Assembly: GCF_022378355.1 (NCBI RefSeq)
Contig: NZ_JAKMAJ010000001.1
Location: 248,001-312,000, forward strand
From: Brenneria bubanii
GTDB taxonomy: Bacteria; Pseudomonadota; Gammaproteobacteria; Enterobacterales; Enterobacteriaceae
Reading direction: 5' to 3'
Length of the DNA stretch: 64,000 nt
Made by a program: the position numbers and the translations under genes. Below are positions 12,069-16,320 of this stretch, piece after piece. The notes beneath the pieces are model-generated. The model was not told the origin of the DNA. It saw only the letters and a list, made by a program, of their open reading frames with translations, and ran no database searches. Each line of letters opens with the position of its first letter. The stretch's first letter is position 1.

Positions 12069-12523
12069 TGGGGATTGAACTGGTGATGGAAAATGCGCAC
12101 TGGTTCTGGCTATCGCTCGGTGGCCTGCTGCTGGCGGCCGAGATGCTGGGCGCCAGCGGCTATCTGTTATGGAGCGGCATATCGGCGGTGCTGGTCGGGC
12201 TACTGGTCTGGCTGATACCGATAGGCTGGCCGTGGCAAGGCATGGCATTCGCCGTCCTGACGATCATCACCGCCGTGCTTTGGTGGTACTGGCTGCGCAA
12301 ACGCACGCTTGCCCGCCCCGCTTCCACTCTGAACCAGCGCGGACAACAGTTGATTGGCCGGCGCGCTACGCTGCTCGAACCCATTGTGGATGGATTTGGC
12401 CGCGTCAAAATCGGCGACGGTACCTGGCGGGTGAAAGCCGAGCAGAATCTGGCGGCAGGGACGCATATTGAAGTGGTGGCGATTGAAGGCATCACGCTGC
12501 ATGTTCGCCCGGTTACGCCTTAA
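12068..12523 (+). CDS. ybbJ: NfeD-like inner-membrane protein YbbJ
   Basis: NfeD-family protein that partners the stomatin QmcA; in E. coli the pair is linked to heat tolerance and membrane protein quality control. It has 151 residues, with three membrane-spanning stretches in the first 80 residues and a C-terminal OB-fold (about residues 85-150). It overlaps qmcA by one base and its 3' end overlaps the convergent cueR 3' end by 11 bases. No separate terminator lies between these convergent genes. Confidence 0.94.
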
Positions 12524-12953
12524 GCTGCGGCTCGTCATTCAGAGGCTGCGTCGTCGCTGAATGACAGCAGCCTGCCAGATTATTGATTATCGGGCAATCG
12601 GCGCCGCCGTCTCCCGGACACTGTTGCGTCAGCGCCAGCAATCGCTGGCGCATCGCGGCCAGTTCTTCCATCTGGGCTTCAATCGCCTTTACTCTCTGCA
12701 TCGTGCGCGCCTTAACGTCGGCGCTGCGCCGCAACGGATCGTTGAACAACGCCACCAACTCCTTACATTCATCCAGAGTAAACCCCACCTGACGAGCCTG
12801 ACGCAGTAAAGTCAGCTCTTCGATATGATGCCCGCTATAGCTGCGGTAGCCATTTTCAGAACGCAACGGCGCAGTCAGTATCCCTTTCTCTTCGTAGAAA
12901 CGGATGGTTTTACGGCTAAGCCCGGTTTTTTTCGCCACGTCGCTGATATTCAT
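12513..12953 (-). CDS. cueR: Copper-responsive MerR-family regulator CueR
   Basis: Monovalent copper sensor that activates copA and other copper-export genes by twisting an over-long promoter spacer. It has 146 residues (E. coli 135), with a longer C-terminal tail. The MerR winged helix-turn-helix occupies residues 1-70 ([20 protein letters not shown]), followed by a dimerisation helix and the metal loop [11 protein letters not shown] whose two cysteines bind Cu(I). A CCHS tail motif is also present. The ATG at 12953 has GGAGG five to six bases upstream; a GTG one codon earlier is less likely. It is divergent from copA across about 620 nt. Confidence 0.97.
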
Positions 12954-13091
12954 CACTCACCTCCTGATCGCCCCTTGACGGAGGCGCTGCGATTAAAATG
13001 AGCATACTTCATCATCAATGAAATGTCAGAACAGCCGCGTCAAATATGAATATTGATAGATACGGTGTTGCGCTTTCCAGGACGCCCCCTC

Positions 13092-13377
13092 ATGGCGGGT
13101 ATCTTGGCATTCCCCGTCTTAATCTTCGCGCTTCTGCTGCTTTTCGAACGCTATCAGGACTACCCAGGGCTTCGGGTTTGAGGTGGGAAATATCCCGCAA
13201 ACCATTTTTCTGATGACCATCGAATACCTGTGGGCGGTGATCCTATATGCCGGCGTATTTGCCACGCTGCCCATCTATTTTTATCGCTTAGACCGCCGGG
13301 CCATGACGCTGGCGGACAAAATCATGTACGCGTTCACCAGCAAACCGCCATCCATCACTAAATCTATTATCGAATAG
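13092..13377 (+). pseudogene. Frameshifted small membrane protein (unrecognised)
   Basis: An ATG at 13092 with AGGA upstream opens a frame giving a hydrophobic stretch (LAFPVLIFALLLLF) that stops at 13181. A second frame, offset by one base, continues without a good start of its own (only a GTG at 13183) and encodes another hydrophobic segment (YLWAVILYAGVFATLPIYFY) and a charged tail ending at 13377. Joining the frames near 13165-13175 would give a continuous protein of about 95 residues with two membrane spans. I do not recognise the family. Alternatives are two unrelated short frames, or a sequencing error in a real gene. Confidence 0.4.
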
Positions 13378-13466: not shown

Positions 13467-13497
13467 TTGACCTTCCCCTTGAGGGAAGGTTTAACCT
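13467..13497 (+). promoter_or_regulatory. copA promoter with CueR operator
   Basis: The dyad ACCTTCC-N7-GGAAGGT (13470-13490) is a perfect CueR operator, and its surroundings closely match the E. coli copA promoter as I remember it. It lies between a -35 TTGACC (13467-13472) and a -10 TAACCT (13492-13497), giving the 19-nt spacer typical of MerR-family activated promoters. Confidence 0.93.
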
Positions 13498-13572: not shown

Positions 13573-16320
13573 ATGTCGCAGACTCTCGTTTTGTCGTTGC
13601 AGGGACTCACCTGCGGACACTGCGTACAGCGGGTTAAAAAAACGCTGGAGGCGCTACCCGATGTAGAACAGGCGGACGTTACGCTAAATTACGCCAAAGT
13701 GACGGGCGAGGTAAACGCGCCGGCGCTGATCGCCAGTATCGAACAGGCGGGATACCAGGCCGCCCCCGCCGGCGCGCCGGATGTTTCCCTGCGACTTTCC
13801 GGATTAAGCTGCCAGCATTGCGTCGCCTCGACGCGTAAGGCGCTGGAATCGGTGCAGGGCGTTGTCGCCGCAGAAGTATCAAAAGAGCAAGCCGATATCT
13901 ACGGCGATACGGCGCCTGCCGAACTGCTCGGCGCGGTAGAGCAGGCCGGTTACCAGGCCAGCGTATTGGAGGCCGCCCACCCAAAAACTGAGCCGCTGGC
14001 ACAGGTAGCGACCACGCCGGAAACGCTGCCAGCGGCTCAGAATAATGTTCCGGCCCCATCCGTTGATGCCGTCCCCGGCGTCGATGATAGCCATTTCGTC
14101 GGCGACGATGACGTGCAGATACTGCTTGATGGGATGAGCTGCGCCAGCTGCGTCAACCGGGTGCAAAAGGCTTTGCAAGGCGTGACGGGCGTAACGCAGG
14201 CGCGCGTGAATCTGGCCGAACGCAGCGCGCTGGTGAGCGGGCGCGCGATGCCGGAAGCGCTGATTGCCGCCGTTGAACAGGCAGGCTACGGCGCAGAAAT
14301 CATTCAGGATGAGGACCAGCGCCGCGCGCGCCAGCAACAGACGGCGCAACAAAATATCCGGCGTTTTCAGTGGCAGGCGGCGCTTGGTCTGCTGTTGGGC
14401 GTGCCGTTAATGCTGTGGGGCGTGCTGGGCGGCAGCATGACCCTGATGCCGGAAAATCGCACGCCGTGGCTGATGGTCGGCGCGCTGACGCTGGCGGTGA
14501 TGATTTTCGCCGGCGGCCACTTTTATCGTAACGCCTGGCGCAGCCTGAAAAACGGCGGCGCCACCATGGATACGCTGGTCGCGCTCGGCACCGGCGCGGC
14601 CTGGCTCTATTCCATTACCGTCAACCTGTGGCCGGACGTTTTCCCCATGGCGGCCCGCCATCTTTATTATGAAGCCAGCGCGATGATTATCGGGTTGATC
14701 AACCTCGGCCACGCGCTGGAACAACGCGCCCGCCAGCGCTCATCCCACGCGCTGGAAAAGCTGTTGGATCTCACGCCGCCCACCGCCCGGGTGGTGATGC
14801 CGGACGGCGAGAAAACGCTGCCGCTGACCGCCGTACAATCCGACATGACGTTACGCCTGACGACCGGCGACCGAATTCCCGTCGACGGCGAAATCCTGCA
14901 GGGAGAAATCTGGGTCGATGAAGCGATGCTGACCGGCGAGCCGCTGGCGCAGCAAAAAGAACCAGGGAGTGCGGTTCACGCCGGCACGCTGGTGGCGGAC
15001 GGCAGCGCGTTATTGCGCGCGGAGGCCATCGGTAACCAGACGACGCTGTCGCGCATTATCCGGCTGGTCAGGCAGGCGCAGAGCAGTAAACCGGCCATCG
15101 GGCAATTGGCGGATCGCATTTCCGCCGTATTCGTGCCGGTGGTGGTGGCTATCGCCGTCATCAGCGGCGCCGTTTGGTTCTTCGCCGGCCCGGCGCCGCA
15201 GCTTGTCTACACGCTGGTGATCGCCACCACGGTACTGATTATCGCCTGCCCTTGCGCTCTGGGGCTGGCGACGCCGATGTCGATTATTGCCGGCGTCGGC
15301 CGGGCGGCCGAATTCGGCGTTCTGGTGCGCGATGCCGATGCCTTGCAACAGGCCAGCCGACTGGATGTTCTGGTGTTCGATAAAACCGGTACCCTGACCG
15401 AAGGCCAGCCGCGCGTGGTGGAAATTCACACCTTTCAGCCGGCGACGGAACAGCAGGCGCTAATCTGGGCGGCTTCGCTGGAGCAAGGCGCCAACCACCC
15501 GCTGGCGAAATCCATCGTTGCCCGTGCTGCAGGTCTTCCTCTTTCGGCGATCAATCAGTTTCGCACGTTACCGGGACTCGGCGTCAGCGGAAAGACAGCC
15601 GAGGGCGTATCGCTGCTGCTCGGCAGTCCGACGCTGCTGAAACAGCAGCGGGTTGATATTCAAGCCGGCGAAGCCTTGATCGCGGAACAGGCGCAACGCG
15701 GCGTCACGCCGGTATTGCTGGCGGCGGATGGTCATGTCGTCGCGCTATTCTCCATTCTCGATCCGCTGCGCGAGGACAGCGCCGCGGCGTTGCGACGCCT
15801 GCATCATCAGGGCTATCAGTTGGTCATGCTGACGGGAGATAACCCGCTGACGGCCAGGGCTATCGCCAAAGAGGCGGGTATCGACCGGGTGATCGCCGGC
15901 GTGCTGCCGGACGGCAAGGCCGAGGCCATCAGAGAGCTCCAGGCGCAGGGAAACCGCGTGGCGATGATCGGCGACGGCATCAATGACGCGCCCGCGCTGG
16001 CGCAGGCCGATGTGGGGATCGCCATGGGCGGAGGCAGCGATATCGCCATCGAAACCGCCGCCATTACGCTAATGCGCCACAGCCTGCACGGCGTAGTCGA
16101 TGCCATGGCCATCGCCAAAGCCACGCTGCGCAACATGAAGCAAAACCTGCTGGGAGCGTTTGTCTACAACGCGTTGGGCATTCCAATTGCGGCCGGCGTG
16201 CTCTATCCGCTGACCGGCACGCTGTTGAGCCCGGTCGTGGCCGGCGCCGCGATGGCGCTGTCATCGATCACCGTGGTCAGCAACGCGAATCGACTGCTGC
16301 GTTTTAAGCCCAAAGAATGA
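13573..16320 (+). CDS. copA: Cu(I)-exporting P1B-type ATPase CopA
   Basis: Inner-membrane ATPase that pumps Cu(I) from cytoplasm to periplasm. It has 915 residues, longer than the 834 of E. coli because it carries three N-terminal heavy-metal domains instead of two, with metal motifs TCGHC (C14, C17), SCQHC (C80, C83) and SCASC (C190, C193). The membrane CPC motif is in [12 protein letters not shown], the phosphorylation motif is DKTGT and the hinge motif is [11 protein letters not shown] 13573 (MSQ) is 9 nt from AGGAG; an ATG at 13567 is too close. It is controlled by the CueR promoter upstream. After the second metal domain, codons 136-138 contain a -1 frameshift signal listed separately. 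Confidence 0.98.
13980..14040 (+). promoter_or_regulatory. Programmed -1 frameshift signal in copA
   Basis: The slippery heptamer C-CCA-AAA (13980-13986, zero-frame codons H136-P137-K138) is followed at once by a perfect 14-bp stem, CTGAGCCGCTGGCA (13988-14001) with TGCCAGCGGCTCAG (14027-14040). In the -1 frame the next codons are AAC TGA, so a slipped ribosome would release a 139-residue protein holding the first two metal domains. E. coli copA has the analogous His-Pro-Lys slippery site that yields the chaperone CopA(Z). The stem begins only 1 nt after the heptamer, so its base must be partly open during slippage. Confidence 0.8.

Follow-up and report, generated by a model that had tools for sequence, protein, structure and literature searches.

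A putative -1 frameshift cassette in Brenneria bubanii copA predicted to yield a two-domain copper chaperone

Based on comparison with its relatives, the copA gene of Brenneria bubanii very probably carries a working signal for -1 programmed ribosomal frameshifting, the ortholog of the one in Escherichia coli copA, from which a tandem chaperone of 139 residues would be produced. What is most likely new is that this would be a two-domain version of the known E. coli frameshift, in a cassette that appears to stay in place while the domains upstream of it vary. Taken by itself, E. coli CopA(Z) can be read as a lone curiosity; here the cassette is fixed across many genera and the upstream domains vary repeatedly. 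These genes thus offer natural variants for testing the parts played by the slip site, the pseudoknot and the nascent chain, and they bear on annotation, where genes of this kind may be labelled as defective or have their short product overlooked.

The copA gene and its candidate frameshift site

In the window (the whole stretch of 64,000 nucleotides that was analyzed), copA occupies positions 13573 to 16320 of the forward strand, from the start ATG at 13573 through the stop codon, and codes for a copper-exporting P-type ATPase of 915 residues with three HMA domains. Its orthology is indicated both by its score against the NCBIfam equivalog NF007952 (1573 bits, with a cut-off of 1316) and by its position in one clade with E. 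coli copA in a tree of the ATPase part. In a search of the organism's own genome the Pfam HMA profile (PF00403) matches three stretches of the protein, namely metal-binding domain 1 (MBD1; 13591-13758, motif GLTCGHC, 50.8 bits), MBD2 (13789-13956, GLSCQHC, 35.5 bits) and a third domain (14125-14289, GMSCASC, 60.1 bits), which adjoins the membrane part and is absent from the predicted short product. Upstream of the gene, at 13471-13489 on the same strand, a dyad CCTTCCCCTTGAGGGAAGG lies inside TTGACC...TTTAAC; from its agreement with the consensus we take it to be a CueR-type operator within a probable copper-induced promoter, and this candidate operator suggests that copA is induced by copper. 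The gene at 12513-12956 on the minus strand is presumably cueR. Between it and copA is an 84-codon open frame (13123-13377, forward strand) with a membrane-like stretch inside, which is perhaps a gene remnant.

In the linker between MBD2 and the third domain, residues H136-P137-K138 are encoded by CAC CCA AAA, so that the heptamer C CCA AAA at 13980-13986, of the X XXY YYZ type, lies in frame after an HMA domain. The -1 frame reads CCC AAA AAC TGA here, and the predicted short product accordingly consists of 138 residues plus Asn139, with the AAC codon and the nearby TGA stop at 13986-13991. The preliminary description of this DNA had read both the heptamer at these three residues and a -1 frame that stops after one codon, and both readings are borne out. 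We propose that ribosomes would pause at a downstream pseudoknot, that the tRNAs for Pro and Lys would slip back by one base from CCA AAA to CCC AAA, and that the slipped ribosomes would stop at TGA and release a 139-residue protein with two HMA domains ending in His-Pro-Lys-Asn, while the non-slipping ribosomes would make the 915-residue pump. Both HMA domains of the predicted short product keep the CxxC motif, and this protein would probably act in the cytosol as a chaperone that supplies the pump with Cu(I), which is the least certain step of the proposal.

According to three reports taken together (PMC9548414, PMC7558416, PMC5009743), the frameshifting of E. coli copA is real and depends on a slippery site, on a pseudoknot and on the nascent chain, nascent-chain stimulation being reported in the second of these (PMC7558416). 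In E. coli K-12 copA we find the homologous heptamer CCCAAAG at Pro68-Lys69, and the predicted -1 product ends at nucleotide 212, in agreement with the annotated soluble Cu(+) chaperone, which spans 212 nt. The resemblance to the E. coli His-Pro-Lys site that had been pointed out beforehand thus holds, as the two genes share a homologous heptamer, an HPK site before the last metal domain, a -1 stop after one codon and homologous pseudoknot stems. They differ in that the short product of E. coli has one HMA domain and 70 residues and ends in G, whereas the one predicted here has two domains and 139 residues and ends in N; in the last base of the heptamer, which is G in E. coli and A here; and in stem 1, which here, unlike in E. 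coli copA, forms a longer helix of 14 perfect base pairs. The abstract of Meydan 2017, which with Drees 2017 is a primary paper on the E. coli frameshift, reportedly mentions comparable elements in other bacteria.

The predicted product resembles the separate chaperones of the CopZ/Atx1 type in its HMA fold with CxxC and in its presumed delivery of Cu(I) to CopA, but it has no gene of its own, would be made by recoding and, with two HMA domains and 139 residues, departs from the single domain of about 70 residues typical of CopZ. The solved two-domain structures 1p6t and 2rml (bacterial CopA) align with its residues 5-128 and the tandem HMA structure 2ew9 (human copper ATPase 2) with residues 4-131; by their molecule names all three are listed as parts of ATPases and not as natural separate proteins.

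Conservation of the heptamer, the -1 stop and the downstream RNA structure

The preliminary description had also noted a perfect 14-bp stem directly downstream. The complementarity is indeed perfect over 14 nt (13988-14001 with 14027-14040, 25 nt apart), and among the ten inverted repeats listed in copA with arms within 80 nt it is the sole one that is fully complementary over at least 14 nt. The RNA from 13988 to 14060 folds with -33 kcal/mol (z -4.1), none of 200 shuffles being as good. However, the element that would stimulate frameshifting differs from that description. The conserved part of stem 1 is confined to the inner arms CCGCTGGCA (13993-14001) and TGCCAGCGG (14027-14035), whose six core pairs form in 101 of 101 rows of the alignment with paired changes at two of them. 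The lower extension, CTGAG at 13988-13992 with CTCAG at 14036-14040, is not generally conserved; its five pairs form in 19, 34, 39, 21 and 70 of the 101 rows, and each of the eight aligned congeners has a mismatch there. As only the inner stem is widely conserved, the spacer between heptamer and stem 1 is 6 nt and not 1 nt. Furthermore, GCCGGAA in the loop of stem 1 (14016-14022) pairs with TTCCGGC beyond the stem (14048-14054), thereby making the element an H-type pseudoknot, and the pairs of this stem 2 are found in 88-101 of about 101 rows, again with paired changes. All of these arms lie on the forward strand.

The comparison used a codon alignment of 101 rows (L144 and L189 were left out), which was built on amino acids and hence not fitted to the RNA; it contains E. 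coli copA (L209), with whose pseudoknot that of the present gene is homologous. In the core of stem 1, CCGCTG/CAGCGG, paired changes occur in L121 and L187 (G-C to A-T) and in L147 and L148 (C-G to T-A), and in stem 2, CCGGAA/TTCCGG, they occur in L121, L122, L132, L178, L182 and others. In 12 rows the last pair of stem 2 does not form, and in L116, L157 and L187 several of its pairs are disrupted. Across all 12 pairs of the pseudoknot, 98.0% of the cells are paired and 15 double-change cells fall on 7 pairs; none of 2000 column shuffles, which ignore relatedness, reached the observed pairing or double-change value, and when one side of a stem was slid by 1 to 3 columns as a control only 15-58% were paired. 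An Rfam search of the gene retrieved no frameshift family; its two matches (E 0.70-0.74) are well under the gathering scores and lie elsewhere in the gene.

We searched for relatives of this copA at several depths: in the genus (10 genomes, all 10 matching, G005 only to an ATPase of 45% identity), in the family (149 genomes, almost one per genus, with 85 matching and 84 examined, G154 being left out), in the order (394 genomes, 138 with a match) and in a collection of named genomes (at least 80 loci). In 76 of the 84 family genes examined, almost all from different genera, CCCAAA[A/G] is followed by a stop after a single -1 codon. Two more combine another heptamer with the -1 stop (CTCAAAA in L120, AAAAAAA in L121), and one (L115) keeps the heptamer without the near -1 stop, so that its -1 tail would be 18 codons. 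The remaining five comprise three with the ATPase in another frame (G123, G013, G116), one four-domain gene that has lost the site (L124) and one broken elsewhere, near the end of a 632-codon frame (L266, genome G035). The 79 genes with the site have two metal domains in 52 cases, three in 23 and four in 4. In a wider alignment, for which two duplicates and the distant match L060 were dropped (105 rows becoming 103 once L060 was set aside), CCCAAA[A/G] occurs in 100 of 103 genes and the -1 stop stands at the same place in 102; in these genes and in the family set the search covered the stretch between the last two metal domains, and it is there that the site lies. The Vibrio-like copA genes (11 loci: L011, L012, L196-L204) have no heptamer with a near -1 stop in the linker when searched to a point within the last metal domain; such matches as they contain lie inside metal domains (L197, L202) or ahead of the first domain (L201).

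The stretch might instead be conserved for the protein, as a linker motif HPK-x-x-PL, with the heptamer as a by-product of codon choice, and the residues PK and PL are in fact well conserved in the aligned set. However, the residue before the Pro is any of ten different amino acids, and the third base of its codon is nevertheless C in 101 of 103 genes; the Pro codon is CCA in 100 of 103, as against 16% of the Pro codons gene-wide; and where Lys-Lys replaces Pro-Lys, in L121 and L144, a slippery heptamer (A AAA AAA in the former, A AAA AAG in the latter) is still present together with the -1 stop. The codon after the Lys ends in T in 102 of 103 genes, and it is this T which, with the GA or AA that follows, makes the -1 stop. 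Synonymous change is at its minimum at this place: of the 839 windows of nine codons that cover the gene from its penultimate domain through to its end, the 25 lowest all lie at residues 131-166, and the lowest has 19 differences against 123.6 expected (L144 and L189 left out, pairs with a tree distance above 0.6 skipped), although, the z values being over-dispersed (5% quantile -4.2), the rank weighs more than the size. The by-product explanation is thus already shown wrong by the wobble pattern in these alignments, and we give it next to no credence. These patterns support a heptamer and -1 stop conserved beyond the needs of the protein together with an RNA structure that covaries, and the combination of heptamer, near stop and stem is evidently not due to chance. 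The preliminary description had looked to the joint fate of heptamer and stem among copA genes of differing domain number, and both prove to be kept with two, three or four domains.

Alternatively, the stem could act on the mRNA, as a transcription terminator or processing site leading to a short transcript and a truncated protein. It is a strong GC-rich stem inside a gene, and the title of Drees 2017, on E. coli, names 'differential transcript formation' besides frameshifting. However, no run of T follows the stem, and a terminator would need neither the conserved in-frame heptamer with its -1 stop nor a pseudoknot that follows at a distance of 6 nt; this explanation is therefore very improbable in place of frameshifting, while such a role could exist beside it. 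A less remote, if still unlikely, alternative accepts the frameshifting and holds the signal to be a relic in the three-domain lineage, where it persists with a useless two-domain product. The function of the tandem product is only predicted, and MBD2 is the weakest of the three HMA matches. Against this, heptamer, stop and stems persist in three- and four-domain genes across genera, and a profile search of the host genome found no standalone gene for an HMA chaperone, as its four matches (E <=0.01) comprise the three within copA and one in the 776-residue reading frame of another ATPase, which is 37% identical to CopA (residues 370-910). Moreover, in L221 and L222, from another family (f9), a reading frame with two HMA domains ends at the corresponding position, ahead of an ATPase that is read in a different frame, a layout which suggests that a tandem product can exist as an independent unit. 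We accordingly favor a tandem product that is put to use.

Changes in domain number around the cassette

Since the cassette keeps its place in the linker that precedes the membrane-proximal domain, the number of domains upstream of it sets the size of the short product, which would contain one domain in E. coli, two here and three in the four-domain genes. On the 121-row tree built from the ATPase part, 19 changes are needed to account for domain number and 7 for the site. As many as three in each set may be artefacts, because L174, L183 and L195 were coded as one-domain genes lacking the site and their upstream domains were later seen in another frame; L185 has three domains by a loose motif and two by a stricter one.

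In the host genus, five two-domain species keep a first domain like MBD1 and are without MBD2: across strand 1 and the CxxC motif, their first domain is identical to MBD1 at 12-13 of 14 positions, versus 6 of 14 for MBD2. As the neighboring genera on the tree have three domains, loss of MBD2 is the more economical interpretation. The single domain of L113 has a first strand like that of MBD1 (13/14) and a helix 1 like that of MBD2 (16/18 versus 7/18), and since its join lies elsewhere its domain loss would be a separate one. The two-domain genes of the genus therefore look like losses of a middle domain rather than pointing to a recent duplication in the copA of Brenneria bubanii, and by this reading the cassette survived each loss. 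The earlier suggestion that the signal moved with, or was kept despite, a duplication of domains stands insofar as it is kept despite changes in their number; the duplication finds no counterpart in the pattern within the genus, which is one of loss.

Relatives with apparently reversed polarity

In four relatives, L214 and L215 (two species of one genus) and L230 and L232 (two genera), the cassette retains its heptamer and its two stems, with a spacer of 5 nt (stem 2 of L232 includes one G-U pair), and the frame of the metal domains ends soon after the heptamer, with the stop directly following SSPKLSR, APKLRR or APKPRR. The ATPase lies in the -1 frame and is entered exactly by the slip from CCA AAA to CCC AAA. 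Four other congeners of L214 and L215 that were searched are normal. A search of 392 family genomes for the pattern with a 4- or 5-nt spacer matched 14, at least four of them in copA (G013, G113, G116, G123), and the same pattern read backwards, as a control, matched three. G113 (L231, L267) is interrupted at additional points and resembles a genuine pseudogene, and so it was not counted as support. A sequencing error is an unlikely cause of the frame breaks, as the same junction is seen in both species in L214/L215 and L230/L232 come from two genera.

We consider it quite likely that the polarity of the copA frameshift has been reversed more than once, such that the chaperone is read in frame and a -1 slip makes the transporter. 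The candidate set comprises L214/L215 and L230/L232, in which the cassette is kept, and seven genomes of the family f9, which we take to be the Pasteurellaceae; L221 and L222 would need a +1 or -2 shift. If this is correct, the default and alternative outputs of one recoding site can swap in evolution, with the forward type yielding chaperones of one to three domains, and the reversed relatives would open the pump-to-chaperone ratio to direct testing and illustrate how the outputs of a programmed frameshift can be exchanged while the frameshift itself persists. Among the titles and abstract openings listed from the open-licence literature, none concerns a two-domain product or reversed polarity, and in a word search of the main text of Antonov 2013 (PMC3711429) both 'copper' and 'ATPase' have zero occurrences.

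We infer that the reversed loci make their pump by frameshifting; restart or non-standard start codons may instead be responsible. In L214/L215 an ATG lies 11 codons before the last metal-binding motif, without AGGA, GGAG or GAGG, and their pump may come from restart at this codon. In f9, 42 of 61 genomes matched and 30 loci were examined. Seven of these, from five genera (L238, L239, L244, L245, L246, L248, L251), close the frame of the metal domains with YCA AAG TAR and encode the ATPase in the -1 frame, where the reading is YYC or YGC/GGC AAA GTA. An independent start for the ATPase was considered for them and set aside, as no convincing start codon was found in the seven: in L244 the ATPase frame contains no ATG, GTG or TTG upstream of the last metal domain, and in only two genes does AGGA, GGAG or GAGG precede a candidate start, which lies 2 codons (L238) or 5 codons (L246) ahead of the last metal-binding motif.

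Differences by codon position in the linker (positions 1/2/3) fit translation in the ATPase frame for L238/L239 (4/1/12), L245/L246 (3/4/8) and L245/L238 (9/8/21) and do so more weakly for L244/L251 (17/15/22); L230/L232 (11/8/11) have no excess at the third position and lend this no support. Among the other f9 loci, ten of the 30 have forward cassettes, and in two (L221, L222) the ATPase is in the +1/-2 frame, the two-HMA frame ending TTA GCC AGG ... TAA with no good ATPase start, possibly by way of a +1 shift at the rare AGG codon. One locus, L241, is split, with an ATG that overlaps the stop, and was counted as plain gene splitting. Two are fused without the site, and eight have a one-domain CopA with a separate HMA reading frame just upstream.
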